A DNA stretch of 64,000 bases. It comes from Ensifer sp. PDNC004. Its GTDB lineage: Bacteria > Pseudomonadota > Alphaproteobacteria > Rhizobiales > Rhizobiaceae. The translations under genes were made by a program, and so were the position numbers. The notes beneath the pieces are model-generated. The model made no database searches and was not told where the DNA came from. It worked only from the letters and a program-made list of their open reading frames with translations. Location: assembly GCF_016919405.1 (NCBI RefSeq), contig NZ_CP070353.1:2914501-2978500 (forward strand). The letters run 5' to 3'. This document shows positions 8,854-48,290 of the stretch, piece after piece; within the stretch, counting starts at the first letter, position 1; each line of letters opens with the position of its first letter.

Positions 8854-9710
8854 CAGTGCCTGTCCATGTCGTCGATAATCAGTTGTCGAAGTGCGGCGTC
8901 CACCGTCGGCCGACAGCCGAACCAGAGTTCGAAGCCGGGCACCGCCTGATGCAGAAGCATGCCCAGACCGTCGACGGTCGCAAGGCCTTGCGCCTCTGCC
9001 TGCGCCAGCATCGGCGTCTTCAAGGGAACATAGACGATATCCGTGACGATGGCGCTCGAAGACATGAGACCGAAATCGATTGCCGGTGCTTCGCTGCCGT
9101 CCATGCCGAGTGAGGTGGTGTTGATGAACAGGCCTGCGCCGGTCATTGCGTCCTTGAGTGCGCCCATCGGGTGGGCTTCGACCGCCGGGCCGAACCGGTC
9201 GGCAAGTTCCTGCGCCCGTTCGACGGTGCGGTTGACGACATGGATCGTCTTGATGCCACGGTCGCGAACAGCCTGGATGATCGCCCGGCTGGCGCCGCCG
9301 GCGCCGAGGATGACCGCCGTCGACGTTTTGTCCCAACCGGCCGCCCGCTCGTCGAGGTTGGCAACGAAGCCGCGGCCGTCGGTGTTGGTGGCATGCACCT
9401 TTCCGTCCTGAACCCACAGCGTGTTGGCAGCGCCGAGTTCCTGGCTCAGCTCATCCGGCTGATCCGCCAGCCGACAGGCCACTTCCTTATGGGGAATGGT
9501 GACATTGCCGCCGCTGAAACCGGATGTCCCATCCTTGAGGCTGGCCACGAAGGCGGCGAAGTCTTCGGGCTTGACCTCATGGGCGCGGTAGCTGCCGGGC
9601 AGACCGAGCTTTTTCAGCCAATAACCATGGATCAACGGCGACCGGGAATGCTTGATCGGGTAGCCGGTGACGAAGGCGTGGTTAACAAATGTTTCACGTG
9701 AATCACGCAT
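8853..9710 (-). CDS. aroE: Shikimate 5-dehydrogenase
   Basis: 285 residues. NADPH-dependent reduction of 3-dehydroshikimate in aromatic amino acid synthesis. [13 protein letters not shown] is the substrate-binding N-terminal motif, and GAGGASRAI with VVNRT mark the NADP-binding fold. The ATG at 9710 overlaps the end of maf by 8 bp. Oddly, codons 3-7 (DSRET) are a parS-like sequence, GATTCACGTGAAAC on the coding strand, so the extreme N-terminus doubles as a likely ParB site. Confidence 0.95.
9690..9705. other. parS-like site 1 (inside aroE start and maf end)
   Basis: TGTTTCACGTGAATCA, one mismatch from the ParB consensus TGTTTCACGTGAAACA. It overlaps aroE codons 3-7 and the maf stop. The mismatch creates GAATC, a GANTC site. 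It lies about 1.8 kb from the probable origin. Confidence 0.75.
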
Positions 9711-10305
9711 CGATCGTTCCCAGTTCGCGAAGTTTGGAAAGCAGCGGCAGCATCGGAAGACCGAGGATGGTGAAGTAGTCGCCCTCGATCTTTTCGAAGA
9801 GCTGGATGCCCTCACCTTCCAGCTGGTAGGCGCCGACGCTCGAAAGAGCCTTCTCGCCGACACGCTCCAGATGACGCTCGACGAACTCCACTGTCAGCGG
9901 TCGTACTGTCATGTGGGCGGACGACACGTGCCGCCAGACAACCTCGTCACCACGAAGAAGCACGATCGCACTGTTCAGGCGGTGCGTCTGGCCGGAAAGC
10001 GAAAGCAGGTGAGCCGCGGCTTCCGCCATGGTCTTCGGCTTGTGGTAGACCCGCGAGCCCAGGGACATCGTCTGATCGGAACCGATCACCAGCGCCCCTG
10101 AAAAATGCCGCGCCACATCCCGCGCCTTTGCTTCCGCCAGTTCGAGAGCGACGGTCTCGGGTGCTGCACCTTTATCTTCAAGCGGCTTTTCCAGCGCGCG
10201 CTCATCGATCTCGGCTGCCCTCGCTTTAAAGACCAGACCGGCATTTTCCAGGAGCGCCCGGCGAAACGGGCTGGCCGAGGCCAGGACGAGCGAAGATGTC
10301 ATCAT
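9703..10305 (-). CDS. maf: Maf-like nucleotide pyrophosphatase
   Basis: 200 residues. Maf/Ham1-fold nucleoside triphosphate pyrophosphatase, probably a house-cleaning enzyme acting on non-canonical nucleotides. [19 protein letters not shown] is the family N-terminal signature, with the GSDQTMSLG segment and [11 protein letters not shown] following. Substrate subclass is not decided. It lies between ppsR and aroE on the same strand; a second ATG at 10302 is equally possible. Confidence 0.92.
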
Positions 10306-10333
10306 TCAGGTTCCCGAATTGTTCGAATCCGCT

Positions 10334-11155
10334 CTAACGCAGACGTGGACGCAGGGCAACGATCGCCGCCGCGGTTTCCTCGATCGAACGGCGGGTGACG
10401 TCGATGACCGGCCAATTGTTGCGTGCACAGAGCGACCGGGCATATTTCAGTTCCTCGGTAATCGAGGCCTTGTCTGTGTACTGATCGCCGTGAAAGCCTT
10501 GCGTCGTTCCGAGCACCCGGTGCTGGCGCACCTGCGAAATACGGTCGGCCGTCGCGATCAGCCCGACGACGAGCGGCTTCGTCGCTTCCATCAATCTTTC
10601 AGGCAGAGGCACGCCCGGGACGATCGGGATATTCGCCGTCTTGATACCTCGGTTGGCGAGATAGATGCTGGTCGGCGTCTTCGACGTCCGGCTGATGCCG
10701 ACGAGAACGACATCCGCGTCATCGAAATCGGCCGGCAGCTGACCGTCGTCATGGTCCATGGTGAAGTTGAGTGCGTCGATGCGGGCGAAATATTCCGCAT
10801 CCATCACATGCTGGGCACCGGAGCGCCGCCGCGACGGGGATCCGAGATAGGACTGGAAAAGGTCGATGATCGGATCGAGCACCGAGACGCAGGGAACACC
10901 CATCTCGCGGCAACGGCGATCGATGATGTCAGCGAGTTCGCGATCGACGATCGTATAGAGAACGATGCCCGGTGCGCCATCTATGGCGTCGAGAACCTGC
11001 AGCAGCTGCTTGCGGTTTCGGATCAGCGGATAGACGTGCTCGAGCGCATGCGAGCTTTGAAACTGGGCCGCGGCGGCGCGCCCGGCGGCAATGAGAGTCT
11101 CGCCCGTTGAGTCCGAAATCAGGTGAAGGTGGAAGTAGTTTTTCTTGTTCTCCAC
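10334..11155 (-). CDS. ppsR: Bifunctional kinase/pyrophosphorylase, PEP synthase/PPDK regulatory protein (DUF299)
   Basis: 273 residues. The family phosphorylates and dephosphorylates pyruvate phosphate dikinase or PEP synthase, switching gluconeogenic flux. [13 protein letters not shown] near the N-terminus and the P-loop-like [15 protein letters not shown] (about residues 151-165) are typical. It flanks oriC opposite hemE, the classic alphaproteobacterial arrangement. I infer PPDK as target because rhizobia use PPDK. Confidence 0.93.
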
Positions 11156-11562
11156 GCAATTCTCCTGGTGCTGTTGATAAGCCGGGATGAAACACAGCTA
11201 ACGACGGGGCCTGGATCCAGGCAAGTGGAAAACAGCCGAGTTATTCACAATTGGCGCTGTCGCGGACATTGTTTCGGGACGGATGTGGACAAGACTCGCA
11301 GTGCGGACAAAGTGTCACGCGTATCAACCGCTTTTCCACAGGCGCGGCAAAAATCGAGCGCGGCTTAAAGACATGATTCAAAAAGCGTTTCCGAGATTGA
11401 CCACGCTGTTTTTCCAGAGATCGCTCTCATTGTCCCGCCAGTTGGCGCCGCGATCGCCGGTCGTGGACAAGTCGGTGGGTTGTTTTAATCCTTGATACCC
11501 ACCGACTCTAAGAAATAGAAACCTTCTAAATATCTTTGATTTTAAATTGGGAGAGACGATCC
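11156..11562. other. Probable chromosomal replication origin (oriC)
   Basis: A 407-nt gene-free stretch between divergent ppsR and hemE, the position of oriC in Caulobacter and Sinorhizobium. DnaA-box-like 9-mers: TGTTGATAA (11172-11180), TTATTCACA (11241-11249), TGTGGACAA (11284-11292), TTTTCCACA (11332-11340) and CGTGGACAA (11462-11470). An AT-rich run near 11505-11548 could be the unwinding element. I did not find a convincing full CtrA box. Confidence 0.8.
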
Positions 11563-12594
11563 GTGACCGAAACGCGCAGAAAGGTTCTGGAAGTTTTGGC
11601 AGGGAAGACGGTGTCACCTCCTCCGATCTGGCTCATGCGCCAGGCGGGACGCTACCTGCCGGAGTACAGGGCGACACGTGCTGTCGCCGGAAGCTTCCTC
11701 GATCTTTGCTACACGCCCGATCTCGCCGTCGAGGTCACCTTGCAGCCGATCCGGCGCTACGCTTTCGATGCTGCCATTCTCTTCTCCGACATCCTGGTCA
11801 TTCCCGATGCACTGAAACGCAATGTGCGCTTCGAAGAAGGCCATGGGCCACGAATGGATCCGATCGATGTCGATGGTATCCGTCTCCTGAAGCCAGAGGG
11901 CATCGCTGAGCACCTCCAGCCGGTCTTTGAGACGGTTTCGCGGTTGCGCGCAGAACTTCCCTCGGAAACGACGCTGCTCGGCTTCTGTGGCGCTCCCTGG
12001 ACGGTTGCGACCTATATGATCGCCGGACACGGTACGCCGGACCAGGCTCCTGCCCGTCTCTTCGCCTATCGCAATCCCGAAGCGTTCGATCATCTGCTCG
12101 CGTTTCTGGCGGATGTGTCGGCGGACTATCTCGTGCGGCAGATCGATGCCGGCGCCGATGCGGTGCAGATCTTCGATTCCTGGGCAGGTGTTCTCGGCGA
12201 GGAGGAATTCGCCCGCTACGCCATCAAGCCGGTGCAGCGCATCATCGCCTCCGTTCGGGCGCAGCGGCCGCAGGCAAAGATCATTGCCTTTGCAAAGGGC
12301 GCAGGGCAGCTGCTGAACGGCTATCGGCAGGCGACCGGCGCTGACGCGATCGGTCTCGACTGGACGGTCCCGCTTTCCTTCGCCAAGGATCTGCAGAAGG
12401 AAGGGCCGATACAGGGCAATCTCGATCCGATGCGGGTGGTCGCCGGCGGCGTGGCGCTTGAGGAAGGCATCGACCGCATTCTCGAGGCACTCGGTCACGG
12501 TCCGCTGATCTTCAATCTCGGCCATGGCATAACGCCGCAGGCCGATCCCGATCACGTCTCGGCGCTGGTTGCCCGGGTTCGCGGAGCAAGATGA
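11563..12594 (+). CDS. hemE: Uroporphyrinogen decarboxylase
   Basis: 343 residues. Decarboxylates uroporphyrinogen III to coproporphyrinogen III in haem synthesis. [17 protein letters not shown] and [14 protein letters not shown] are the two family signatures. The GTG at 11563 is chosen because GGGAGAG lies about 7 nt upstream; the open frame starts at a TTG without a site. It overlaps hemJ by 4 bp and is the first gene right of the origin. Confidence 0.96.
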
Positions 12595-13133
12595 TGGCGG
12601 AGAAGCAGACCGACCGGGCGCCGGGCAACAGGGCGCAGCTCAGGGCAGCGATCGCGCTCGGCGCGTTCGCGGCGCTTCTTGCCGGTCTGTTCGTCTGGCG
12701 TCCGGATGATCTCTATCTCTGGATCAAGGCGTTGCACGTTATCGCCGTGATGTCCTGGATGGCGGCGTTGCTCTACATGCCCAGGCTGTTCATCTACCAC
12801 ACGGATGCGGAACCCGGCTCCGCCCAGTCGGAAACCTTCAAGATGATGGAGTTGCGGCTCCTGAAGGTCATCATGAACCCGGCGATGATGATTTCCTGGG
12901 TGCTCGGGCTCTATCTCGCCTGGAGCGTCTATGGCTTCCAGGGTGGCTGGCTGCATGCCAAGCTTCTGTTCGTGGTGCTGCTGACGGTTGTCCACATGCG
13001 TTTCAGCCGTGCGGTGCGCGCCTTTCAGCGCGACGAAAACAGGCACGACGCGCGCTATTGGCGGTTGATGAACGAGGCCCCTACCCTCCTGATGATCCTC
13101 ATCGTCATCATGGTCGTCGTGAAGCCATTTTGA
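12591..13133 (+). CDS. hemJ: Protoporphyrinogen oxidase HemJ
   Basis: 180 residues. Inner-membrane protein of the HemJ family that oxidises protoporphyrinogen IX, the step after coproporphyrinogen oxidation. It has about four to five hydrophobic helices, with the conserved histidine in [15 protein letters not shown] and the MPRLFIYH segment. It is translationally coupled to hemE (ATGATG overlap), joining two haem steps in one operon. Confidence 0.93.
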
Positions 13134-13190
13134 ATTTAATCGATTTGCGGCCTGTCATAGGCGTTTCTAATTTGCGACAGCCCCTTGCAG

Positions 13191-13206
13191 GGTTTCACGT
13201 GAATCG
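13191..13206. other. parS-like site 2 (hemJ-rho gap)
   Basis: GGTTTCACGTGAATCG. The inner 14-mer GTTTCACGTGAATC is identical to that of sites 1 and 8 and is the complement of sites 3 and 6. Contains GAATC. It lies in the rho leader region. Confidence 0.7.
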
Positions 13207-13327
13207 CTATTTTCTGCCATCTCCTCTTCATGGCTTGTGACAAAGACAAGAGCCTGCCCTTTCCAGCTGCAGCTCCCTAATCAATACTCGCCATCTCTCC
13301 ACTACCCATACCAAACATGGATCCTTC

Positions 13328-14593
<1,266 letters not shown>

Positions 14594-14619
14594 GACGCGT
14601 TCATCGCCAAATGTGAAGG

Positions 14620-14648
14620 CCGGTCGACCATGCGTCGGCCGGTTTTTT
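14620..14648 (+). terminator. Intrinsic terminator of rho
   Basis: An 8-bp stem (14620-14627 with 14635-14642, one G-U pair) with a 7-nt loop, followed by six T residues. Confidence 0.8.
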
Positions 14649-14743
14649 CGTTTCTAAACCTTAGCCGGATTCGCCACCGCTTTCGATTCGCTTTCGCAAC
14701 GATCTCCGCTCTACACCCGCCTTTGGATCGCCGTCCCTCCTGC

Positions 14744-14759
14744 TGATTCACGTGAAACA
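14744..14759. other. parS-like site 3 (rho-mnmE gap)
   Basis: TGATTCACGTGAAACA, one mismatch from consensus. The mismatch makes GATTC, a GANTC site. Confidence 0.78.
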
Positions 14760-14965
14760 CGTGCAGGCGTGAAAGACGAGGATGCAGCGGCATCTTGAAA
14801 TTTCAGCATTCTTTCGGCATAAGCACGCCGACCCTTTGAGATACCGTTTGGCTCTGTGTGAGCGCACTCCGCGAAGCAGGACGATCCGGTCGGGAACTTC
14901 GACGATCCCCATTGTTTCGACCATCGACGCGCTTACATGCGCCCGCGGTCTTTTCAGGTGAGCCC

Positions 14966-16294
14966 ATGACAGCGACGCAAACGATCTATGCGCTTTCCAG
15001 CGGAGCTCTGCCCGCCGGCGTCGCAGTCGTGCGTGTCAGCGGAAGGCACACCGAAGCGGTGCTGCAGGCACTATGTGGTGACGTGCCCTCGCCGCGGAAG
15101 GCGGCATTGAGATCGATTCGGTCTCGTAACGGTGATGTCATCGATAGCGGCCTTGTTCTCTACTTTCGCGGACCTGCCTCCTTTACCGGAGAAGATTGCG
15201 CCGAGTTTCAGATCCATGGTGGCCGCGCCGCGGTCAACGCGTTGCTTGAGGAACTCTCGAAGCTCGAGGGTTTGCGCCATGCAGAAGCCGGTGAGTTTTC
15301 GCGCCGCGCTTTCCAGAACGGCAAGCTCGACCTGGTCGAGGTGGGGGGTCTCGCTGACCTGATTGTCGCCGAGACGGAAATGCAGCGTCGGCTTGCGATC
15401 GAGCATTCCGGCGGCGGACAGTCGAAGGTCTATGCCGGCTGGGCGAAGCGCTTGACCCATGCGCGGGCGATGATCGAGGCGGAGCTCGATTTTGCCGATG
15501 AAGACGACGTGCCGGGATCGGTCAGCGAGCGCATCTGGCGGGACATGTCGCTGCTGTCGCAAGAGATCGCAGCGCATATTGCCGACGCTCCAATCGCGGA
15601 GATCATCCGCGATGGGCTGAAGATCGTCATCGCGGGTGAGCCGAACGCCGGCAAGTCGAGTTTGCTCAACGCGCTGGCCCGGCGCGACATTGCCATCGTC
15701 ACTGAGATTGCCGGCACAACCCGCGACGTCCTTTCCGTCGACCTTTCCTTAGCCGGATTCTCCGTGAAACTTTATGACACGGCCGGTCTGCGGGAAACCG
15801 ACGAGAAAGTAGAACAAGAAGGCATTCGTCGCGCGCGAGAAATTATCGAGAGAGCGGATCTGATCTTGCTGCTGGCCGATGCACCGGATGGATTTGATGT
15901 CATATCCGACCTTACATCCGAGATGACGCCGGTGCTGCGCGTTGGAACCAAGCTCGATCGCGGCATTGTTAGTTGGCGCGATGGTTCTGCCGACGTGTTG
16001 GTTTCCACAAAAACCGGCGCCGGCATGGAACAACTGCTGGACGCGATCGCGGGACACCTGCCCGATCTCAGTGGGCGGACGTCGCTGTCGCTACCGTCGC
16101 GGCGGCGACATGTCGATAGCCTTCGGCAGGCACAACGCTCGATCGACGACAGCCTGGCAAGGCAGGATCTGGGGCTGGACATACGCGCGGAACTCTTGCG
16201 CCTTGCTGGCGATGCAATTGGACGGATAACCGGGCGTGTGGATGTTGAGAACCTTCTTGATGTGATATTTTCCGAATTCTGTATCGGGAAATAA
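14966..16294 (+). CDS. mnmE: tRNA modification GTPase MnmE
   Basis: 442 residues. With MnmG it installs the (carboxymethyl)aminomethyl group on the wobble uridine of several tRNAs. Order: N-terminal tetrahydrofolate-binding domain (TIYALSSGALPAGVAVVRVSG), helical domain, inserted G domain (GEPNAGKSSLLN, DTAGLRETD, TKLD) and the C-terminal CIGK motif carrying the catalytic Cys. ATG 14966 is fixed by AGGTGAG at 14956-14962. It lies 95 nt before mnmG with a parS site between. Confidence 0.96.
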   Translation: MTATQTIYALSSGALPAGVAVVRVSGRHTEAVLQALCGDVPSPRKAALRSIRSRNGDVIDSGLVLYFRGPASFTGEDCAEFQIHGGRAAVNALLEELSKLEGLRHAEAGEFSRRAFQNGKLDLVEVGGLADLIVAETEMQRRLAIEHSGGGQSKVYAGWAKRLTHARAMIEAELDFADEDDVPGSVSERIWRDMSLLSQEIAAHIADAPIAEIIRDGLKIVIAGEPNAGKSSLLNALARRDIAIVTEIAGTTRDVLSVDLSLAGFSVKLYDTAGLRETDEKVEQEGIRRAREIIERADLILLLADAPDGFDVISDLTSEMTPVLRVGTKLDRGIVSWRDGSADVLVSTKTGAGMEQLLDAIAGHLPDLSGRTSLSLPSRRRHVDSLRQAQRSIDDSLARQDLGLDIRAELLRLAGDAIGRITGRVDVENLLDVIFSEFCIGK

Positions 16295-16336
16295 TCAGTA
16301 GCGCAGAGCAATACAACGTTTGCGAGTCTTTCATTG

Positions 16337-16352
16337 TGTTTCACGTGAAACG
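16337..16352. other. parS-like site 4 (mnmE-mnmG gap)
   Basis: TGTTTCACGTGAAACG, a perfect symmetric GTTTCACGTGAAAC core. The next base pair begins GATTC, so a GANTC site directly abuts it. Confidence 0.9.
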
Positions 16353-16388
16353 ATTCGTGCCGGGGTCAACCCCGGAGAAGAGGCAAAG

Positions 16389-18269: not shown

Positions 18270-18904
18270 AGGCGAGTCCAATCGATGTGTTGAACGGACT
18301 GCGTGTTTCACGTGAAACGAATGAACGGCTCGAGCATTTTGCCAGACTTTTTCAGAAGTGGGCGAAGTCGATCAACCTTGTAGCGCCGTCGACGGTAGAG
18401 GATCTTTGGCGCCGGCATATCGTCGATAGTCTGCAACTCGCGCAGCTGTCGCCGGGTCCGAAGACCTGGGTCGATCTTGGCAGCGGTGGTGGTTTTCCCG
18501 GCGTGATCACGGCGATCTATCTCGCCGAGTTTGCTGACGGCTGGGTGCATCTCGTCGAAAGCAACAACAAGAAGGCTGCCTTTTTGCGCGTCGCCTTGGC
18601 AGAAACGGGCGCGCGCGGCTCCGTTCACCCGGTTCGAATCGAAGATGCGGGAGCAATTATTCCCCGCGCCGATGCTGTTTCTGCGCGCGCACTCGCGGAT
18701 TTGACCCTGCTGCTTGACTATTCTGCGCCGTGGATGACGGCACAGGACCAAAAAGCGGTCGCGTATTTTCACAAAGGGCGGGATTACCAGCGTGAAATCG
18801 ACAAAGCCGTTGGCCGCTATCAGTTTGATCTGGTAAAACATCCAAGCGTGGTCGAGCCGGATTCTGTCGTGCTCGAGATCGCAAATCTGTCACGCAAGGC
18901 TTAG
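18266..18904 (+). CDS. rsmG: 16S rRNA (guanine527-N7)-methyltransferase
   Basis: 212 residues. SAM-dependent methyltransferase of 16S rRNA G527. Motif [12 protein letters not shown] is near residue 70 and [10 protein letters not shown] precedes it. Codons 13-18 (RVSRET) are encoded by a perfect parS core, so the N-terminus doubles as a ParB site. The start overlaps mnmG by 4 bp and the stop overlaps the GTG of parA. Confidence 0.95.
18304..18319. other. parS-like site 5 (inside rsmG)
   Basis: TGTTTCACGTGAAACG, perfect symmetric 14-mer core, within the rsmG coding region and 600 nt before parA. Confidence 0.9.
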
Positions 18905-19716
18905 TGATCGCGAGCGGAAACATGTTTGGTGGCAAAAACCGGATAATCACAATCGCAAATCAGAAGGGTGGCGTGGGCAAAACCACGACGGCCATCAACC
19001 TGGCGACCGCATTGGCGGCTATCGGCGAGCGCGTGCTGATCGTCGATCTCGACCCTCAGGGCAACGCCAGCACCGGTCTTGGTATCCAGCGCCGCGATCG
19101 GAACCTGTCGTCCTATGAATTGATGATGGGATCGCACGGGATCGGAGAGATCGCCCAGGAGACCGCGGTCCCAAACCTTGCGATCATTCCTTCGACGATG
19201 GACCTTCTCGGTGTCGAGATGGAAATCGCGCAGGAACCGGATCGCGTCTTCCGTTTGCGCAAGGCCTTGGTCAGTCCCGCCGCAATGGAATATTCCTACG
19301 TGCTGGTCGATTGCCCGCCGTCGTTCAATCTTCTGACGATGAACGCGATGGCAGCGGCCCATTCGGTGCTCGTCCCTCTGCAGTGCGAGTTCTTCGCGCT
19401 CGAGGGCTTGAGCCAGCTGCTGGAGACGGTGGATCAGATACGCCGGACCGTGAATCCAAGCCTGGATATCCAGGGTATCGTCCTGACCATGTTCGATTCG
19501 CGCAACAATTTGGCACAGCAGGTTGTCAGCGACGTCCGGACGCATCTTGGCGACAAAGTCTACCACACTCTGATCCCGCGCAATGTTCGCGTCTCGGAAG
19601 CCCCGTCCTACGGCAAACCGGCCATTCTGTATGATCTGAAATGCGCCGGCAGCCAGGCCTATCTGCAGCTGGCCTCCGAAGTCATTCAGCGCGAGCGCCA
19701 GCGCAAGGCAGCATAA
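18904..19716 (+). CDS. parA: Chromosome partitioning ATPase ParA
   Basis: 270 residues. Deviant Walker ATPase that segregates the origin with ParB-parS. KGGVGKTTTAINLA is the Walker A (residues about 21-34), VDLDPQGNAST the A' box and VLVDCPPS Walker B. The GTG at 18904 shares a base with the rsmG stop; an ATG at 18922 behind GAGCGGA is an alternative that also matches the family N-terminus. parB follows 35 nt later. Confidence 0.96.
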   Translation: MIASGNMFGGKNRIITIANQKGGVGKTTTAINLATALAAIGERVLIVDLDPQGNASTGLGIQRRDRNLSSYELMMGSHGIGEIAQETAVPNLAIIPSTMDLLGVEMEIAQEPDRVFRLRKALVSPAAMEYSYVLVDCPPSFNLLTMNAMAAAHSVLVPLQCEFFALEGLSQLLETVDQIRRTVNPSLDIQGIVLTMFDSRNNLAQQVVSDVRTHLGDKVYHTLIPRNVRVSEAPSYGKPAILYDLKCAGSQAYLQLASEVIQRERQRKAA

Positions 19717-19751
19717 TCATTTCGGTAGCGTAATTTAACTCGGGTGACGAT

Positions 19752-20642
19752 ATGAACGACGATAGCTCGAAGAGGCGGCTCGGTCGCGGACTGGCCGCGT
19801 TGATCGGCGAGATGGATCAGCCGTTGCAAACGGGCGCGGCCGCCCCTGCCCCGGTCAATCCTGACCGGCGCGTGCCGATCGAGTTCGTATCGCGCAATCC
19901 GCGCAACCCGCGTCGCCAGTTCGACGAGGCTGAACTGCAGGATCTTGCCAATTCGATCCGCCAGCACGGGATCGTTCAGCCGGTCGTTGCCCGGACGATC
20001 GGCGCCGATCGCTACGAGATCATCGCCGGTGAGCGCCGCTGGCGTGCGGCACAGTTGGCCGGATTCACCGAAATCCCGGTCATCATTCGCGACGTCGACG
20101 ATCGGACGGCGCTCGAAATCGCCATCGTTGAAAACGTCCAGCGCTCGGATCTCAATCCGCTGGACGAAGCACTTGGCTACGAGCAGTTGATCGCGGAGCA
20201 CGGTTACACACAGAACGATCTCGGCGAGATCATCGGCAAGAGCCGAAGCCATGTGGCCAACAGCCTGCGTCTCTTGAAATTGCCTGAGCCGGTTCGAGAC
20301 ATGTTGTCGGAAGGCACGCTGTCCGCCGGACACGCGCGCGCGCTCATTCCGACGTCGGATCCGGCCACCCTCGCCCGGGCGATCATTGCCAAGGGTCTCT
20401 CGGTGCGTGACGCCGAGCGTATCGCGCAGAACGATATTCGTGCGCAGAACGATCCGAACTACGGCAAGACCGCCCGTCGCGACGAGAAGGATGCAGACAC
20501 GCTGGCGCTCGAGCGTACGCTGTCCGATAGCCTCGGGCTTGAAGTCACCGTGAACCACAAGGCGTCCGGTGGCCATCTGCGCATCGCCTACAAGACGCTG
20601 GATCAGCTTGAAGAAATCTGCCGGCTGCTGGAGCGGCGATAA
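19752..20642 (+). CDS. parB: Chromosome partitioning protein ParB
   Basis: 296 residues. CTPase and DNA-binding protein that loads on parS and spreads. The short N-terminal ParA-interacting region (RRLGRGLAALIGE), the CTP-binding GERRWRAAQLAG box and the HTH around SRSHVANSLRLLKLP are visible. It almost certainly binds the parS-like sites listed in this window. It ends before a strong terminator. Confidence 0.97.
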   Translation: MNDDSSKRRLGRGLAALIGEMDQPLQTGAAAPAPVNPDRRVPIEFVSRNPRNPRRQFDEAELQDLANSIRQHGIVQPVVARTIGADRYEIIAGERRWRAAQLAGFTEIPVIIRDVDDRTALEIAIVENVQRSDLNPLDEALGYEQLIAEHGYTQNDLGEIIGKSRSHVANSLRLLKLPEPVRDMLSEGTLSAGHARALIPTSDPATLARAIIAKGLSVRDAERIAQNDIRAQNDPNYGKTARRDEKDADTLALERTLSDSLGLEVTVNHKASGGHLRIAYKTLDQLEEICRLLERR

Positions 20643-20677
20643 GCCACTCCTTCAGATCTCGAATTCATGCGTTGATG

Positions 20678-20704
20678 GCGCGCCGCCCGAAGAGCGGCGC
20701 GCCT
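20678..20704 (+). terminator. Terminator of parAB
   Basis: A 10-bp GC-only stem (20678-20687 with 20695-20704), 7-nt loop, followed by TAATTGTTT. In the 204-nt gap between converging parB and holA I see no further gene. Confidence 0.75.
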
Positions 20705-20846
20705 AATTGTTTGATATAACGAGATCTTTTCGCATTCAGCCTAATTCGGCTGGTGACTTGAAGGCATCCAAACATCTCCGGCAGACAGGCCGAAAGCCTG
20801 CGGTGAAACTCGGACATGGAAGCAGCAATGGGCCTGGGCGGAGAGC

Positions 20847-21881: not shown

Positions 21882-21892
21882 GCCGACACCGG

Positions 21893-26026: not shown

Positions 26027-27934
26027 ATGGCGAGCAGCTATGCCGAAGTGTACGCGGGCTGGAAAGCGGACCCGCAGAGTTTCTGGTCCAATGCCGCCGA
26101 TACGATCGACTGGTTTGAAAGACCGGCACGGGCGTTCGATGCGGACGCCGGCATCTATGGGCACTGGTTCGCCGATGGCGTTACCAATACCTGCTACAAC
26201 TGCCTGGATCGCCATGTGGCCGCGGGCCGTGGCGAGCAGATCGCCTTTATCTATGACAGCCCCGTCACCGGGCGGGTGGAGCGCATCTCCTACGCATCTC
26301 TGCTCGCCGACGTAGCGGCTCTTGCCGCCGCCTACCGCAAGCTGGGGGTCGGCAAGGGCGACCGGATCATCATCTACATGCCGATGATCCCGCAGGCGGC
26401 GGTTGCGATGCTCGCGGCTGCGCGCATTGGCGCTGTGCATTCCGTGGTCTTCGGCGGCTTTGCCGCCAATGAGCTCGCCGTACGCATCGACGATTGCCAG
26501 GCGAAGCTGATCGTGTCCGCAAGCTGCGGTATCGAGCCCGGTCGTACTGTCGCCTACAAGCCGCTGCTGGATGCGGCGCTCGACATCGCAACCCACAAGC
26601 CGGCCCATTGCCTTGTCTTCCAGCGCGAGATGGCGGAAGCCGCCATGACAGAGGGACGCGACATCGATTTCGCGTCGGCGCTCGCCGCGGCGAAAGAGGC
26701 GGGGGAAGGAACCGAATGCGTGCCGGTCGCCTCGACCGATCCGCTCTATGTGCTCTACACCTCGGGCACGACCGGCCAGCCCAAGGGGGTGGTGCGCGAC
26801 AATGGCGGCCACATGGTCGCGCTCAAATGGTCCATGGAGAACTTCTTCGGCGTGCAGCCGGGTGAAGTCTTCTGGGCCGCGTCGGACATCGGCTGGGTCG
26901 TCGGCCATTCCTACATCGTCTACGGCCCGCTCCTGAACGGCAGCACGTCGATCCTGTTCGAAGGCAAGCCGGTCGGCACGCCGGACCCCGGAACCTATTG
27001 GCGCATCATCGCCGAGCACGGCGTCGTGGTGATGTTCACCGCGCCGACGGCGCTCAGGGCGATCCGCAAGGAGGATCCGGAGGCCTCTCACGTTCGCCGA
27101 TACGACCTGTCGAAGTTCCGCGCCTTGTTTCTGGCCGGTGAACGGGCGGATCCCGACACGATCCACTGGGCCGAGAAGGCGCTTGGCGTGCCCGTCATCG
27201 ATCATTGGTGGCAGACGGAAACCGGATGGCCTGTGGCGGGAAATCCCATGGGACTCGGCCTTCTGCCGGTAAAATACGGTTCGCCGGCCGTTCCGCTACC
27301 GGGATACGACGTCCAGATCCTCGACGATGCCGGACATCCGGTGACAGCCGGTACGCTCGGCAACGTGGTCGTGAAGCTGCCGCTTCCGCCCGGATGCCTG
27401 CCGACGCTCTGGAATGCAGACCACCGGTTCCGCGTGGCCTATCTCGACGAGTTTCCCGGCTACTACAAGACTGCCGATGCCGGCTATCTCGATGAGGATG
27501 GCTATATCTTCATCATGGCGCGAACGGACGACATCATCAATGTGGCAGGCCATCGCCTCTCCACCGGAGCGATGGAGGAGGTCTGCTCGAGCCACCCCGA
27601 TGTTGCCGAATGTGCCGTCATCGGTATTGCCGACGATTTGAAAGGCCAGATCCCGGCCGGCTTCCTCGTCATCAACTCCAATATTTCCCGTGAAACGTCG
27701 GAGATCGAACGCGAAGTCATCAGCCTCGTGCGCGAACGCATCGGACCGGTTGCCGCCTTCCGGCTGGCGATCTGCGTCAAGCGGCTGCCGAAGACGCGGT
27801 CGGGCAAGATCTTGCGCGCCACGATCCAGAAGATCGCCGACCGTCAGCCCTGGAAAATGCCGGCGACGATCGATGATCCTGTCATCCTCGACGAAATCAC
27901 CGTCGCTCTGCATGGGCGAGGCATCGGCGTCTAG
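26027..27934 (+). CDS. prpE: Propionyl-CoA synthetase-like AMP-forming acyl-CoA synthetase
   Basis: 635 residues. Activates propionate (or a similar short acid) to its CoA thioester via acyl-AMP. P-loop YTSGTTGQPKGVVRDNGGH is near residues 244-262, WWQTETGWP in the middle, and DDIINVAGHRLSTGAMEEV plus KTRSGKILR in the C-terminal lid, with the acetylatable lysine. SVHGQ-type details favour PrpE over Acs, a family-level inference. AGGGAGGA at 26013-26020 fixes the start. Confidence 0.85.
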   Translation: MASSYAEVYAGWKADPQSFWSNAADTIDWFERPARAFDADAGIYGHWFADGVTNTCYNCLDRHVAAGRGEQIAFIYDSPVTGRVERISYASLLADVAALAAAYRKLGVGKGDRIIIYMPMIPQAAVAMLAAARIGAVHSVVFGGFAANELAVRIDDCQAKLIVSASCGIEPGRTVAYKPLLDAALDIATHKPAHCLVFQREMAEAAMTEGRDIDFASALAAAKEAGEGTECVPVASTDPLYVLYTSGTTGQPKGVVRDNGGHMVALKWSMENFFGVQPGEVFWAASDIGWVVGHSYIVYGPLLNGSTSILFEGKPVGTPDPGTYWRIIAEHGVVVMFTAPTALRAIRKEDPEASHVRRYDLSKFRALFLAGERADPDTIHWAEKALGVPVIDHWWQTETGWPVAGNPMGLGLLPVKYGSPAVPLPGYDVQILDDAGHPVTAGTLGNVVVKLPLPPGCLPTLWNADHRFRVAYLDEFPGYYKTADAGYLDEDGYIFIMARTDDIINVAGHRLSTGAMEEVCSSHPDVAECAVIGIADDLKGQIPAGFLVINSNISRETSEIEREVISLVRERIGPVAAFRLAICVKRLPKTRSGKILRATIQKIADRQPWKMPATIDDPVILDEITVALHGRGIGV

Positions 27935-32690: not shown

Positions 32691-32778
32691 CTGAACGGTA
32701 TCCGGATTCGAGCATCAATATTGAAGAATTGGGTGTTTGCACCCATCATATAGGATGCCGTTCCCCGTACGGGAACCC

Positions 32779-32794
32779 TGATTCACGTGAAACG
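32779..32794. other. parS-like site 6 (upstream of htpX)
   Basis: TGATTCACGTGAAACG. Core GATTCACGTGAAAC identical to site 3. Contains GATTC. It lies 21 nt before the htpX start codon. Confidence 0.72.
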
Positions 32795-32815
32795 TCGACG
32801 ACCCGGAGCCTTCTG

Positions 32816-35187: not shown

Positions 35188-35400
35188 CAGCGCAAACTCG
35201 CATTTCAGCGCTTGGAACTGGGCCTCAAGGCCCTGTTCCACCGCATCATTTGACGCTTTCGACCGGGAAGCCTATCAAAGATGGCAGGATTGATAAAAGT
35301 TTAATGGTCTTCGCGGCACCATGCGGGCGCTGGCGCGAGGTCCTGGCCGGCTCCGATGACGTGAGCGATCGTGCCAGAGATGAGGTAACCGGCGGCGTTG

Positions 35401-37086: not shown

Positions 37087-37163
37087 GCCTTCCGTCTTGA
37101 GATCGGGTGCGCCCGAGAAAGCGCCTCAGGTTTTCCGGTCACGTTTCAGGAACGGTCGCATTC

Positions 37164-37194
37164 ATGAATTTGGATCGATCCGATCCAAATTCAT
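37164..37194. promoter_or_regulatory. 31-nt perfect inverted repeat between heparinase gene and purH
   Basis: 14-bp arms ATGAATTTGGATCG / CGATCCAAATTCAT around a 3-nt spacer. No T tract follows in either direction. It lies 110 nt before purH and could be an operator or a hairpin for the heparinase transcript. No purine riboswitch features are visible. Confidence 0.5.
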
Positions 37195-37303
37195 CGCGAT
37201 CTTCAGGCCGCGCGAGGTTCCTTCGCCCGGCAAGCTATGCTAACGGGCAGCCATCTCAACCGCCGGAGCTTCCTCCCGGGGCGTCCGGCGCCGCCAAAGG
37301 AGC

Positions 37304-38920: not shown

Positions 38921-38976
38921 GATCGTCGGGGCGGGCGCTGGGCGTCTGTCCGGAATTGGCCGCTAAGGCCCAACAG

Positions 38977-40404: not shown

Positions 40405-40422
40405 AGTCCCCTCCCGAAACGA

Positions 40423-40456
40423 CTGCGCCGCGCGTCCCCTCGAACGCGCGGCGCAG
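40423..40456 (-). terminator. Strong hairpin between gdh and the MFS gene
   Basis: A 13-bp perfect stem (40423-40435 with 40444-40456), 8-nt loop, with TCGTTT following on the minus strand. It would end the glutamate dehydrogenase transcript. A smaller 8-bp hairpin at 40498-40522 lies nearer the stop codon. Confidence 0.65.
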
Positions 40457-40531
40457 CCTATCTTCAATTGAACCGATTCCAAAAGGTCTGGAACCGGATG
40501 CGGGCGAAAAAACTGCCCGCATTTTTGTCCG

Positions 40532-43500: not shown

Positions 43501-45325
43501 CGTCACGGTGGATGAGCTCCATGTCGTGGAGCACGACCTTGCGCTTCTCTTCGCCGTGGGCGTTGACGCCGATGTCGTAGGTCTGTTCGCTGATCACTCG
43601 GAAGCCGAGGTTTTCAAGCAAGGGCACGCGGCGCGACAGCGACACGGGTTCGCTGGCGTGGAAGATCTTGAGCTCGGCGGTATCGGGCCGCGAAACGGTA
43701 CGGGGATAGTGATAGAACTCGATCCGGATCGGATCCGGGCCCTTGCAGGCGGCGATATCTGCCAGATCGGCATAGGCTTCAGCCGGCGTGAAGAACGACT
43801 GGTAGGCGTTGTCGACATCGAGTTCGATGCCGTCCTTGCGGGCAAGCAGGTCGAACCGGTCGATCCAGCGGGTGACGATGCCGCGAACCGCCTCTTCGAG
43901 CTTTGCCTGCGGAATGCGCGGCGTCTTGCCGGCGGAGCGGCCGATAATGAAGTGGACGCGGGCAAGGCCGCCTTCCGGGAAAGCCGGGTAGTAGGCGGAG
44001 ACGCGACCGTCATAGACCGTCTTCAAATAGTCGCCGATCTTCTCGCGAACATCCGAATCGTACTGCTCGCGCGGCACGAAGACGATGACCGAGACGAAGC
44101 GGTCGAAATGGTCGATACGCGGCAACACGCGGATGCGCGGCCGATCGCCGAGCTCGTTGATTTGTTCGCAGAAGGCGGCAAGCAGGCCGACATCGATCTG
44201 GAACAGGTCGTCGCGCGGATAGGATTCCAGCGTGTTGGCCAGCATCTTGCCGGAATGGCTTTGCGGATCATAACCGAAGTGATCGACGATCTTTTCGATC
44301 TTGTGGCGCAGAAGCGGAATTTCAGCCGCCTGGCGGGTGTAGGCCGAGGAGGTGAACAGGCCGACGATGCGCAACTCGCCAGCGACGTTGCCATCGGCGT
44401 CGAAGCGCTTGACGCCGATGTAGTCCATGTAGGCGCGGCGATGCACGACCGACTTGACGTTGGCCTTGGTGACGATCAGGAAATCGGGGCCATCGAGGAA
44501 GGCGAGAATTTCAGGTGTGGTCAGCACCGCGTCCTTGCCCTGGCGCAGAACGCGCACATCCGGGTTGGAGAGGATGCCGAGGCCCCTGCCCTTGCCGCGT
44601 TCGACGGCTGCCTTCTCGCCCTTGCCCGAGTAGGTGTATTCGCGCATGCCGAGGAAGGTGAAGTTGTTGTCTCGCAGCCAGCGAAGGAAGGCGAGCGCCT
44701 CGTCGCGGTCGCTCTTCTTGCGCGTCGCGTTGTAGGTTTCGAGTTCCGACATGGCCTGATCGAGCAAGGTCGTCATCGCCGGCCAGTCGTGCACGGTCTG
44801 GTGGACCTGCTCCAGCACGTCGCGGATGCGGTTGCTGAGCTGCTCCGCCTCGACGGGCGCAAGCTTGGTCAGGTGGATCTGGATATGGCTGACGCGGTGC
44901 GACGGATCGCTTTCCTCTTCCGGATCGAAGAGCTTTGCCGGCTTGCCCGGTTCCTTGACCAGGATGGGATGGATCGCGAGGTGAATGTCACGGTGGGTGC
45001 TGGTGATTTCCCCCATGACCGAGTCATAGAGGAACGGCATGTTGCGTTCGGTTACGGCGATGACCGATACCTCGGTACCACCCGGCACGATGCCGGCGAC
45101 GGCTTCGACCGAAACCTGCGGCTTGCCGCCATCCCAGCGGGCGAGTTCACGAGCCGCATGGGCTGCGGTCAGCGCCAGCATGTCCGCCGAATAGAGATCG
45201 AGGTCATCGTTGCTGGCTCCACCGAAGAGGATCTCCGGCGCCAGCGCCTCGACGCCCAGTTTGATGGCGGCCGCCTTCGCTGCGTCGATGTGTCTGTCCC
45301 GCTTCGGATTGTATTTCACGCCCAT
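40532..45325 (-). CDS. gdhB: NAD-specific glutamate dehydrogenase, large (180 kDa) class
   Basis: 1597 residues. Oxidative deamination of glutamate to 2-oxoglutarate with NAD. The long N-terminal ACT-rich regulatory half is followed by the catalytic core with KGGFYPK, and the NAD-binding region with GGIGTYVRG and EGANLGVTQ. The C-terminal helical region completes the L-GDH class known from Streptomyces, Caulobacter and rhizobia. GGGAGAG a few bases upstream favours ATG 45325 over 45343. The symbol is by analogy. Confidence 0.94.
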   Translation of the reverse strand: MGVKYNPKRDRHIDAAKAAAIKLGVEALAPEILFGGASNDDLDLYSADMLALTAAHAARELARWDGGKPQVSVEAVAGIVPGGTEVSVIAVTERNMPFLYDSVMGEITSTHRDIHLAIHPILVKEPGKPAKLFDPEEESDPSHRVSHIQIHLTKLAPVEAEQLSNRIRDVLEQVHQTVHDWPAMTTLLDQAMSELETYNATRKKSDRDEALAFLRWLRDNNFTFLGMREYTYSGKGEKAAVERGKGRGLGILSNPDVRVLRQGKDAVLTTPEILAFLDGPDFLIVTKANVKSVVHRRAYMDYIGVKRFDADGNVAGELRIVGLFTSSAYTRQAAEIPLLRHKIEKIVDHFGYDPQSHSGKMLANTLESYPRDDLFQIDVGLLAAFCEQINELGDRPRIRVLPRIDHFDRFVSVIVFVPREQYDSDVREKIGDYLKTVYDGRVSAYYPAFPEGGLARVHFIIGRSAGKTPRIPQAKLEEAVRGIVTRWIDRFDLLARKDGIELDVDNAYQSFFTPAEAYADLADIAACKGPDPIRIEFYHYPRTVSRPDTAELKIFHASEPVSLSRRVPLLENLGFRVISEQTYDIGVNAHGEEKRKVVLHDMELIHRDGHALNLEKSGPALEEAFLAAWNGTTEDDNFNRLVLLAGLNAREVTVLRAYARYLRQAGITYSQGYIADTLNKYPAIAADIFKLFVTRMDPKLEEKPRAKKCNALLSAIEDALSAVPSLDEDRILRRYVNAIEATLRTNYFQHDADGKPRAVLAFKLDPKQLDGLPEPHPFREIFVYGTEVEGVHLRFGKVARGGLRWSDRAQDYRTEVLGLVKAQQVKNAVIVPVGAKGGFYPKLLPVGGTRDEVFKAGTEAYKTFIRTLLSVTDNIVGQDVVPPADTQRHDGDDPYFVVAADKGTATFSDTANGLAQEAGFWLDDAFASGGSAGYDHKKMGITARGAWETVKRHFREMDIDIQTTPFTVAGVGDMSGDVFGNGMLLSEKIRLIAAFDHRDIFIDPSPDIDASFAERKRMFDLPRSSWQDYDRKTLSDGAMIISRAEKSVTLTPEAMAAIGLDKHKATPFEIMNAILKSQVDLLWFGGIGTYVRGSNETDAEVGDRANDAIRVAAEEVRARVIGEGANLGVTQKGRIGFGLNGGRCNSDAIDNSAGVNSSDVEVNIKIALASAMRDGRLTRPKRNTLLASMTEEVGHLVLRNNYEQSLAISLTAMQGLGNRTTLGRLMTRLEADGHLNRKVETLPTDQAMTERYQAGKPLTRPEIGVLLSYSKLVLFDELIASELPDDPYFTATLERYFPGKMRKAYAGDIHGHRLRREIIATILANEVINRGGPAFVSTLTDATGFLSADVVKAAVLALDGFDLPRIYDEIDALDNKIGGGLQNILYQEVGRIFTLVTERTLRTHAATGSVSEAVSRLGDGLQKLRATMRTAVSGESAEEARLKTAAFVEGGVPAKLAEEISELALMTLVPEIMQIAAETGETLSRTAQGYFAITDTLRINRLLAASDRVPATEQFEAMALSRAVSDIAAARRDITAAALREQKKERNPVAAWEENERVRVAQATGQLRLLTEKGETTLAKITVAAGLLNDLARGRAK

Positions 45326-45426
45326 GAAGTCTCTCCCATTCATGATAGGCCAAACCCTATCAGAACCATGGCTAATGGCGACCGCTTTTTACGCTGATTT
45401 CGGCAAAATCGAGCCCAAAATCGGAG

Positions 45427-45442
45427 AATTTCACGTGAAAAC
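45427..45442. other. parS-like site 7 (upstream of gdh)
   Basis: AATTTCACGTGAAAAC. The central 12-mer TTTCACGTGAAA is perfect, but the outer bases differ from consensus, so it is the weakest of the set. Confidence 0.5.
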
Positions 45443-45610
45443 AGCTTAAATCCATTTAAATCGAAGGTAATTTCGCGAAAATTGCTCGAAAATCGAAGAA
45501 AAAGCACGAAAACGCCAGAGGCTTCTCCGGAGCCTATCTGCCATCGGCTGTTGACAGGGCGGTGACAGTCGGGTGAACAGAGTTTCGAGATCGTAGGATT
45601 GGACTGGTCG

Positions 45611-46493
45611 ATGCCCGAAATGCCCTCCCTGCCCGGCGCCGTCATCGTCATCTCGAGCCATGTCGTGCGCGGCAAGGTGGGCAACAGGGCCGTGGTCTTC
45701 GCGCTGGAGACCCTGGGGCATCCGGTCTGGGCCCTGCCGACCGTCATCCTCCCCTGGCATCCGGGTCATGGCCCCTCGACGCGGATCGCCATTTCCGATC
45801 AGGATTTCGGGGCGGTGATCGATGACCTTATTGCAGCACCCTGGGCCGGAGAGGTGCGCGCCGTGCTTTCGGGCTACCTCGGCTCGGCGGGACAGGCGGA
45901 AGCCGTGGCGCGGCTGGTGACGGCGCTGAAGGAGCGCGATCCCAAGCTGATCTATGCCTGCGACCCCGTGGTCGGCGATGCCGGCGGTCTCTATGTGCCG
46001 GAAACCACGGCGGTTGCCATTCGCGACCGCCTGCTGCCGCTTGCAAATCTTGCGACCCCCGAACCGCTACGAGCTCGCCTGGCTCGCTGGCGCGACGCTG
46101 GAGACGAACACGGCGATCCTCGACGCGGCGCTCGGCCTCGGTCCGGCCCGCGTGCTGGTCACGTCCGCCGTACCGATGATGAGCGGCGGGACCGGCAATC
46201 TCTTTCTTTCGGGCAACCACGCGCTGCTTGCCGAACATCGTCTGGTCGAAAACCCGCCGAACGGCACGGGTGACCTGTTGGCGGCGGTGTTTCTCGCCCG
46301 GATCCTTGAAGGACTTTCAGAGGAACGCGCCTTGCAGATGGCGACGGCGAGCGTATTTGAGATCATCGCGCGGAGCGTCAAGCGCGGCGCAGATGAATTG
46401 ACCATCGAGCAGGACGCGTCGAGCCTCTCGACGCCCATGGCGATGGTGCAGATGCGCCGGCTGGTTCATCCGAATCAGATGCGGCGCAAGTGA
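45611..46493 (+). pseudogene. pdxY: Pyridoxal kinase PdxY, interrupted by a single-base frameshift
   Basis: Two overlapping frames give one PdxY of about 293 residues. The first, from 45611, carries ISSHVVRGKVGNRAVVFALE, PWHPGHG and CDPVVGDAGGLY; the second resumes with NRYELAWLAGATLETN and carries NPPNGTGDLLAAVFLARIL. The shift falls in a run of five C at 46056-46060; four C would restore ATPNRYELAWLAG. PdxY phosphorylates pyridoxal. This is either a true mutation or a sequencing error; the rest of the gene looks under selection. Confidence 0.85.
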
Positions 46494-46621
46494 AGAAGCT
46501 GTTCACGGACCGCCACCCTATGGCATCGTGGATTGAATTTTAGATCGCGATCATTTTCATGACGGAGGTGCGGGTGGGCGAAAGCCGGCCATGCCGCCTT
46601 GAAGCACGAGCGGAGCAATCG

Positions 46622-47275
46622 ATGGACAAGCAGCAGCAGCGTTTTCCGGACTATCTTCTGAACGGCTACCACAATTTCATGAACGGTCGCTTCAGCGAAC
46701 AGCAGAAACGCTACAAGGCGCTGGCGGAAACCGGGCAAAAGCCGAAGACAATGGTCATTGCCTGTTGCGACTCGCGCGCTGCGCCGGAAACGATCTTCGA
46801 CAGCGGCCCTGGCGAACTCTTTGTCGTGCGCAACGTCGCCAATCTCATGCCGCCCTACGAGCCGGATGGGCACTACCACTCGACTTCGGCGGCGCTGGAG
46901 TTCGCCGTACAGTCGCTGCGCGTCAGCGACATCGTCGTCATGGGCCACGGCCGCTGCGGTGGTATCAAGGCGGCACTCGATCCGGATGCCGAGCCGCTGT
47001 CGCCGGGCGATTTCATCGGACGCTGGATGCATCTTCTGAAGCCCTCGGCCGAGCAGATCCAGAGCAATGACGTGATGACTCAGGCTGAGCGCCAGCGCGC
47101 GCTCGAGCGGGTTTCGATCCGCAACTCGCTTGCCAATCTGCGCACGTTCCCATGCGTCCAGATCCTCGAGGCCAAAGGCAAGCTCCACCTGCATGGCGCC
47201 TGGTTCGACATCTCGACCGGCGAACTCTGGGTGATGGACCCGGTTACCGGCGACTTCTCCCGCCCGGGAATGTAA
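46622..47275 (+). CDS. Beta-carbonic anhydrase
   Basis: 217 residues. Zinc enzyme interconverting CO2 and bicarbonate, cytoplasmic. CCDSRAAPETIF supplies the Cys and the Asp-Arg dyad; MGHGRCGGIKAAL supplies the His and second Cys ligands. ATG 46622 (MDKQQQRFPDYLL) is the family start; the open frame begins 63 nt upstream. It lies 128 nt after pdxY and has its own terminator. Confidence 0.94.
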   Translation: MDKQQQRFPDYLLNGYHNFMNGRFSEQQKRYKALAETGQKPKTMVIACCDSRAAPETIFDSGPGELFVVRNVANLMPPYEPDGHYHSTSAALEFAVQSLRVSDIVVMGHGRCGGIKAALDPDAEPLSPGDFIGRWMHLLKPSAEQIQSNDVMTQAERQRALERVSIRNSLANLRTFPCVQILEAKGKLHLHGAWFDISTGELWVMDPVTGDFSRPGM

Positions 47276-47285
47276 TCGATCAGCA

Positions 47286-47317
47286 AAAAGGCCCGGCTCT
47301 TCCGAACCGGGCCTTTT
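47286..47317. terminator. Terminator, carbonic anhydrase/MltB-like gene
   Basis: An 11-bp stem (47286-47296 with 47307-47317) with a 10-nt loop, A-rich on the left and T4 on the right. Confidence 0.8.
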
Positions 47318-47357
47318 GTCTGTTTGGAACGACTAAGTGTTCCGAAAGACGCAAATC

Positions 47358-48194
47358 CTAGAGACCGTCGATCTCGGCGCCGATGATGGCGATCGCCTGC
47401 TGGTAGACGGTTGCCGCATTCCAGCCCTGGATCGCGGCGAAGTTCGCCTGACCCTGCTGATAGCCGGCGCCCGGCTGCCAGCCATGGCCGCGCAGGAAGT
47501 TGGCGGTGGACGCCAGCGCGTCGGCCTTGGAGCGAACCATGTCGACATGGCCGTTGCCGTCGCCATCGACGCCGTATTTCAGGACGTTGGCGGGCAGGAA
47601 CTGGGTCTGGCCGATTTCGCCGTGGGCGGCGCCCCGCGCATCCGGGCTCAGGTCGCCGCGCTGCACGAGCTGCAGGGCCGCATAAAGCTGGTTGGTGAAG
47701 TAGTCCGAGCGACGGCAGTCATAGGCGAGCGTCGAAACGGCCGAGAGCGTGTGCTCCTTGCCCATGAAGCCGCCGAAACCGGTTTCCATGCCCCAGATGG
47801 CGATCAGCGGGCCGGCCGGTACGCCGTAGCGCCGCTCGATGCTGGCAAAAAGGGCAGCGTTCTGCTGCTTCATCTTTTTGCCGCGGGAAATGATCACCTG
47901 GCCGCCACGCTTCTGCATGAACTGGTCCAGCGACAGCTTGAAGCTCTTCTGGCCGCGGTCGGCGCGGATCGTCGCCTTGTTGTAGGAGACGCCGGAGAGT
48001 GCACGGTCGAGCACCTGCGGGCTGATGCCGCTGCCGGAAGCCTGCCGCTTAAAGTTCTGAACCCAGGCTTCAAAGCCGCTTCCGTCATTGCCGCATTGGG
48101 CGGCAGATGCCACCGCCGGAAAAACTGCAGTCGAAATCAGGGCAACAAGCCCCACTGCTGCGCACTTCGCCCTGTGCATGAAATACCCCGTCAT
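47358..48194 (-). CDS. Lytic murein transglycosylase, MltB/SLT_2 family
   Basis: 278 residues. A signal peptide (AAVGLVALISTAVFPAVASA, cleaved before AQC) leads to the SLT_2 domain. The catalytic Glu is in IWGMETGFGG, and GEIGQTQFLPANVLKYGVDGDG is the family signature. It cleaves periplasmic peptidoglycan. The C-terminal LRGHGW motif is present but no PG_binding domain follows. ATG 48179 is an alternative start. Confidence 0.92.
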   Translation of the reverse strand: MTGYFMHRAKCAAVGLVALISTAVFPAVASAAQCGNDGSGFEAWVQNFKRQASGSGISPQVLDRALSGVSYNKATIRADRGQKSFKLSLDQFMQKRGGQVIISRGKKMKQQNAALFASIERRYGVPAGPLIAIWGMETGFGGFMGKEHTLSAVSTLAYDCRRSDYFTNQLYAALQLVQRGDLSPDARGAAHGEIGQTQFLPANVLKYGVDGDGNGHVDMVRSKADALASTANFLRGHGWQPGAGYQQGQANFAAIQGWNAATVYQQAIAIIGAEIDGL

Positions 48195-48274
48195 AGCCCG
48201 AATCTCGTTGCTCTTAAAAATGCCAGCCTTCGCCGGCCGTGTCACCTCCCGCAAGCGGCAGGTAACTTTATCGT

Positions 48275-48290
48275 GGTTTCACGTGAATCC
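48275..48290. other. parS-like site 8 (asd-MltB gap)
   Basis: GGTTTCACGTGAATCC. Inner 14-mer GTTTCACGTGAATC identical to sites 1 and 2. Contains GAATC. It is the site furthest from the origin in this window, about 37 kb away. Confidence 0.7.

Follow-up and report, generated by a model that had tools for sequence, protein, structure and literature searches.

The 64,000-nucleotide stretch analysed here, hereafter the window, is C2:2914501-2978500 of Ensifer sp. PDNC004, whose genome of 6,778,202 bases (6.78 Mb) is assembled in three contigs, and our subject is the array of parS sites, the predicted binding sites of the partition protein ParB, that lies within it. The window is the origin/parAB region of the Ensifer chromosome, with coaE-aroE-maf-ppsR on one side of the expected replication origin (oriC) and hemE-hemJ-rho-mnmE-mnmG-rsmG-parA-parB-holA on the other. 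The oriC of S. meliloti and that of Caulobacter are placed beside hemE, and by analogy we take the intergenic region at 11156..11535 (no strand), which contains three GANTC motifs, to be oriC. The cumulative GC skew reaches its minimum within the window at 15015. The parA gene (18904..19716, + strand) matches ParA-family partition models with scores under the curated cut-offs, and the product of parB (19752..20642, + strand; protein P0001) scores above the cut-off of TIGR00180 and matches the Caulobacter ParB 6t1f with an E-value of 9.6e-66. Among named ParB loci, those of Ensifer adhaerens are nearest, with 99% identity. Rfam and tRNA scans of the window gave no matches.

The window was searched for the 16-mer parS with up to three mismatches, using 100 shuffles as a control, and the 14-mer core was counted genome-wide against its reversed sequence. 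Eight 16-mer matches were found, versus 0.07 expected and a maximum of one in any shuffle. Seven of the window sites lie within one mismatch of GTTTCACGTGAAAC, as do chromosomal parS of the ParB/Spo0J type, and they fall into two classes: two are exact copies of the symmetric GTTTCACGTGAAAC, and five carry the asymmetric 14-mer GATTCACGTGAAAC on one strand or the other. The symmetric sites, which have no strand, lie between mnmE and mnmG (16338..16351), where the site is directly adjoined by GATTC, a target of the methylase CcrM (16352..16356, + strand), and in the start of rsmG (18305..18318), where the site encodes VSRET. The asymmetric sites, in which the deviation from symmetry creates a GANTC, are located in the first codons of aroE if its start is MRDSRET, as we infer (9691..9704, - strand), between hemJ and rho (13192..13205, -), between rho and mnmE (14745..14758, +), immediately upstream of htpX (32780..32793, +), and between the genes for a lytic murein transglycosylase and a semialdehyde dehydrogenase (48276..48289, -). 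A reading of the window made earlier from its letters only (the sequence-only reading) had described these two origin-proximal classes; every site that it named is present at its coordinates, as is the GATTC that it saw directly after its site 4, and the genome-wide count of both 14-mers that it proposed bears the two classes out. Indeed, GATTCACGTGAAAC occurs six times in the whole genome, with none in the reversed control and no copy away from the origin region: all six fall in C2:2873960-2962789, 89 kb around the origin, the sixth, at C2:2873960, lying outside the window, 40 kb to its left. The genome has two copies of the symmetric 14-mer. The sole other single-mismatch site is GTTTCATGTGAAAC at C2:2900178, so that all nine parS sites of the genome with zero or one mismatch are confined to the same interval.

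Beyond one mismatch the signal fades. Two-mismatch sites number eight genome-wide, versus four reversed-control matches, and single sites of this kind are therefore uncertain. Three of the eight lie in the origin region: the GANTC-bearing GCTTCACGTGAATC at C2:2863337, the degenerate parS-like ATTTCCCGTGAAAC in an acyl-CoA ligase gene of the acetate/propionate-CoA ligase type (27683..27696, + strand), and the weak parS-like palindrome ATTTCACGTGAAAA (45428..45441). What counts as an eighth site varies with the threshold: under the three-mismatch limit the eighth 16-mer match is 27682 (TATTTCCCGTGAAACG), 45428 being weaker, and GANTC is absent from both. Relatives of the ligase-gene site mostly read GTTTCCCGTGAAAC, in which the half with A6C (A to C at half-site position 6) resembles half of a Noc site. 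The named loci described below (L151-L230) have 44 A6C sites, 41 of which fall inside a CoA-ligase match. The three coding parS sites, in unrelated genes, share the peptide core SRET (DSRET in aroE, VSRET in rsmG and ISRET in the ligase).

Genes for both CcrM and ParB are present in the genome. PF01555 gives its only match to an N6/N4 methylase family, a 378-amino-acid protein that matches the CcrM structure 6pbd with an E-value of 1.8e-160. The GANTC-class parS are thus predicted CcrM targets, as the sequence-only reading had it, in a genome that encodes CcrM. All 297 genomes of the order that were sampled have a CcrM homologue (E <= 1e-30), so that this sample offers no CcrM-negative control genome. 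In S. meliloti, the average methylation of GANTCs is 0.99 (PMC11711589; this and the other papers cited by PMC number are drawn on in excerpt). As to ParB, P0001 has the recognition helix GKSRSHVAN together with G201 and R204 (Caulobacter numbering; parS-contacting residues from PMC7383237), so that a ParB with the parS-reading residues is encoded near the array. K171, S172, R173, N178, G201 and R204 are invariant in 121 rows of the family, and in 60 other alphaproteobacteria as well, save for K171R in three. Changed ParB specificity residues were considered as a cause of the variant class and rejected, as the main contacts are common to variant users and non-users.

Conservation was first examined in 16 genomes of the genus, including our own (G000), each of which has nine or ten sites within one mismatch. 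Slots were read from site coordinates and spacing in G000 and G001-G007; site number and spacing in the latter match the six slots of G000 that carry T2A (T to A at position 2 of one half-site). Across these eight genomes, 47 of 48 slot copies read GATTC on one strand or the other. For the family, slots were counted in 121 loci from sites found within two mismatches, empty slots not being scored as losses; three genomes are present twice (L011/L155, L012/L174, L019/L204), and the main counts are also given without duplicates. Both copies also enter the tree and its column changes, the ParB rows, the observed/expected GANTC ratio, the counts of GANTC beside symmetric sites and the slot orientations; leaving them out does not alter our weighing of the explanations. 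The aroE slot bears GANTC in 57/57 sites found (56/56 without duplicates), the hemJ-rho slot in 38/39 (36/37) and the rho-mnmE slot in 33/34 (31/32), or 123/125 for the three slots together without duplicates. Symmetric sites in these slots are 0 of 130 found (0/125 without duplicates), and the two sites lacking GANTC (L024, L034) both have two mismatches and could represent a different element. The rsmG slot, in turn, is symmetric in 121/121 family sites (118/118), and the mnmE-mnmG region holds 109 symmetric, 68 GANTC and two other sites (106, 67 and 2). By parsimony on a tree of five concatenated proteins, duplicates included, each core column of the aroE, hemJ-rho and rho-mnmE slots underwent zero to two changes, versus flank means of 3.4-12.7; the hemJ-rho and rho-mnmE slots are intergenic. 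The orientation of the GANTC half is constant within each of the aroE, hemJ-rho, rho-mnmE and mnmE-mnmG slots and differs between slots, so that a fixed orientation relative to the origin was discarded as a rule. The variant is thus kept in the same slots in genus and family, a check that the sequence-only reading had put forward. Its claim of five independent occurrences stands in part: at least six slots exist in the genus, but each slot is inherited, and independence therefore holds across slots and lineages only, not for every copy.

To place the variant among other changes, sites within two mismatches were collected in 140 loci of up to about 19 kb around mnmG, some contigs being shorter. 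In 39 other genera of the family we found 69 symmetric sites, 59 with a single mismatch (52 T2A and two T4C) and 19 with two (12 of them GACTCACGTGAAAC). The 40 loci from other orders of the class gave 87 symmetric and 10 single-mismatch sites (six T4C, one T2A), 20 further loci of the order or class gave 38 and 14 (seven T2A), and 40 loci from the phylum's other classes (29 having a parB close by and 11 not) gave 17 and 10 (eight T4C, two T2A). The T2A share differs between the family and other orders or other classes (Fisher 1.8e-6 and 2.8e-5, respectively, kinship uncorrected): T4C is the commonest change in the loci sampled outside the order, T2A in the Ensifer family. A set of 80 named Rhizobiaceae-type loci shows the same excess, with 158 symmetric, 137 T2A, 44 A6C, one T4C and one G1T site. 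Within the order, family f165 has 4-10 T2A sites and f195 mostly six or seven, while several families have none; among the matches listed, the GATTC-class arrays (4-10) of some families include pairs or triplets about 36-51 bp apart. Four other alphaproteobacterial loci (L088, L089, L105, L106) carry GTTCCACGTGGAAC or GTTCCACGTGAAAC sites instead. If the variant had come about by chance or by symmetric sites decaying, one of the 21 possible single half-site changes would make GANTC; given that T2A makes up 52 of 59 such changes, that the slots are conserved and that none has reverted to symmetry, we consider this origin highly improbable, and the view of the sequence-only reading that the deviation does not look like decay is borne out.

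A more serious rival is that the ParB of this clade simply tolerates A at position 2 of one half, T2A being a weaker parS that tunes affinity and the GANTC a by-product. One-sided divergent parS with a conserved GTGAAA half are indeed known from Caulobacter (PMC5815017), T2A accounts for two of the 10 single-mismatch sites in other classes, and the one clear family difference among the ParB positions examined, K at position 184 in 119 of 121 rows, involves a residue termed permissive in PMC7383237. This position is occupied by G, A, R, N and K in the five other alphaproteobacteria that have a GANTC-bearing site: one shares the K and one has R, but three have G, A or N, and the main ParB contacts are unchanged. 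Moreover, neutral tolerance predicts reversions from A to T, of which the three slots show none, and tuning predicts a mixture of weakening changes, whereas T4C amounts to 2/59 in the family versus 6/10 and 8/10 elsewhere.

The pattern of substitution inside the altered half also bears on this point. In the GANTC sites near mnmG, half positions 1, 2, 4 and 5 were fixed by the choice of the set and the other ten core positions were scored: the N of GANTC (third position) takes eight T/C changes and the nine others none, while the same third position has no change in 110 mnmG and 120 rsmG rows without GANTC. A second test took two-mismatch sites with one T2A half, without conditioning on GANTC. 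The second change lies in the T2A half in 16 sites from 12 loci (15 T3C, giving GACTC, and one A6C), all of them preserving GANTC; it lies in the other half in five sites from five loci (three T4C, one G1C, one T2C), all at positions 1, 2 or 4 (p = 5e-5 by site and 1.6e-4 by locus, kinship uncorrected). Locus L191 of S. meliloti combines an intact GANTC half with GCTTC in the other half. GANTC in both halves was found in none of 494 sites without duplicates, versus about 22 expected if the halves were independent. In 71 family genomes, with matches counted genome-wide and part of them placed relative to the origin, the GACTC variant gives 28 matches in 18 genomes and none in the reversed control. 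On the side of tolerance, some family lineages use GTCTC (12 matches in 7/71 genomes) or GCTTC/GGTTC (GSTTC, 7 matches in 6/71), with one reversed-control match each. That second changes in the altered half land on the N of GANTC counts against tolerance, which we regard as unlikely, though well short of negligible. Selection for the methylation target appears likelier than either decay or simple tolerance because of the slot conservation, the dominance of T2A, the second changes on the free N, the CcrM homologues found across the order, and the main ParB contacts common to variant users and non-users.

Several observations nevertheless weigh against selection for a CcrM target. GTCTC, which is not a GANTC, co-occurs with GACTC in four of its seven genomes (G180, G183, G197, G198), so that some lineages are laxer at position 3 for another reason, and the free N is never A or G in these 71 genomes, all 28 changed sites being GACTC. 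The constancy of the aroE and rsmG sites partly reflects protein constraint, as both are coding (DSRET, VSRET). In the genus, the G006 slot that matches 48276 by spacing reads GCTTCACGTGAAAC, with GCTTC in place of GATTC. The exact T2A site is present in only part of the order (104/219 genomes, with one reversed-control match), and seven of the 39 family genera have no GANTC-parS within about 19 kb. Most sampled alphaproteobacterial loci outside the order lack the variant, which is rare there even though CcrM is reported outside the order (PMC3973325), and T2A turns up in two loci of other classes (L141, L145). Finally, methylation cannot be needed at every site, since the symmetric rsmG sites (121/121) have no GANTC.

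The surroundings of the array raise another possibility, namely a role of the GANTCs in promoters or in the control of the origin (CcrM/GcrA regulation, oriC-type GANTC clustering), their overlap with parS arising because both are crowded into the same short intergenic regions. By a simple longest-ORF (open reading frame) rule, intergenic GANTC density in the window is 9.2/kb at 9-19.5 kb versus 1.8/kb beyond 19.5 kb and 1.0-3.5/kb in four distant 12-kb samples. Origin-region intergenics are likewise rich across the family (mnmE-mnmG 11.1/kb in 36/39 loci, rho-mnmE 10.4/kb in 21/39, ppsR-hemE 11.2/kb in 29/39), although the family loci as a whole have fewer GANTC than expected (observed/expected 0.68), and in Ensifer the motif is about twice as frequent in intergenic DNA (PMC8725594). 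A GANTC lies within 10 bp of the symmetric mnmE-mnmG sites in 13/30 cases (genus and 39-genera set) and 76/79 (named and window set), an enrichment absent beside the symmetric rsmG sites (3/41 and 2/80) and beside symmetric sites in other alphaproteobacteria (3/47 at mnmE-mnmG, 6/51 at rsmG). We conclude that the enrichment beside the symmetric mnmE-mnmG sites is real, and that part of it follows from these intergenics being rich in GANTC in general. Promoter or origin control does not, however, account well for the sites themselves: the same 14-mer occurs in coding sequence (the aroE slot in 57 family loci, a hemE-aligned stretch in five) and just beyond a gene end (L001), and its GANTC occupies one fixed position within the ParB half-site. 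We therefore judge this explanation improbable.

Taken together, the array is very probably the chromosomal centromere (ParB-parS) of an Ensifer with two classes of parS; ParB binding at the sites, their methylation and any mutual effect are inferred. As the altered half keeps A against T, as further change falls on the N of GANTC and as T4C is scarce, the best account is selection for the CcrM target together with direct ParB-CcrM interplay, which we hold to be somewhat probable. The symmetric sites (rsmG, and mnmG with its adjoining GANTC) would be plain sites of ParB nucleation. In the GANTC class, one ParB half-site would stay intact while the other would have been turned into the CcrM target GA(T/C)TCAC, selection keeping it for its methylation and not simply as half of a ParB site. 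Since the origin replicates first, the onset of S phase would leave these fully methylated sites hemimethylated, a state lasting until CcrM is produced late in the cycle. Methylation of one half-site may then alter ParB loading on the GANTC class, or ParB may keep CcrM off the sites; in both cases, a portion of the centromere would report the state of replication, the symmetric class being constitutive. More tentatively, as a conjecture to which we give somewhat less than even credence, the centromere of these Rhizobiales may be gated by methylation, CcrM switching part of the parS array such that ParB loading changes at fork passage and resets with CcrM.

The question addressed by such an arrangement is how segregation stays in step with replication. 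Centromere sites bearing a cell-cycle methylation mark would be a direct and testable link between the two in the family to which Ensifer, Sinorhizobium and Rhizobium belong. If the gating holds, the start or end of segregation would be coupled to replication with no need of a regulator dedicated to it. A further question is why CcrM seems essential for other Alphaproteobacteria when Caulobacter can do without it (PMC6090056). We found no description of GANTC inside parS in the titles, abstract openings and excerpts examined from the open-licence literature, and no mention of the exact 14-mer GATTCACGTGAAAC in open-licence full text.

Known chromosomal parS (ParB/Spo0J; Caulobacter, Bacillus, Agrobacterium parS1) likewise have the core GTTTCACGTGAAAC and cluster near the origin, next to parAB. 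Caulobacter also has one-sided divergent sites (PMC5815017) but, in the excerpted sources, no divergent class is described as uniform and holding a CcrM target, unlike that of the Ensifer array. CcrM sites near partition sites do exist in Alphaproteobacteria, in the GANTC-rich repABC origins and in the 3parS of pAMI4 (PMC9040568, PMC11514494). There, however, GANTC is found next to parS (in pAMI4, five copies some 500 bp away from parS3) and is not described, in those excerpts, inside a half-site, and the partition system is RepAB, unlike that of Ensifer. The closest working analogy is the array of RctB sites at the origin of Vibrio cholerae chromosome 2, where 11/12-mers show methylation-dependent binding and 29/39-mers are independent of methylation, giving two classes for one protein (PMC6090056). 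RctB differs in being an initiator that works with Dam and SeqA in a gammaproteobacterium, whereas the Ensifer array would be a centromere involving ParB and CcrM, with gating only proposed.

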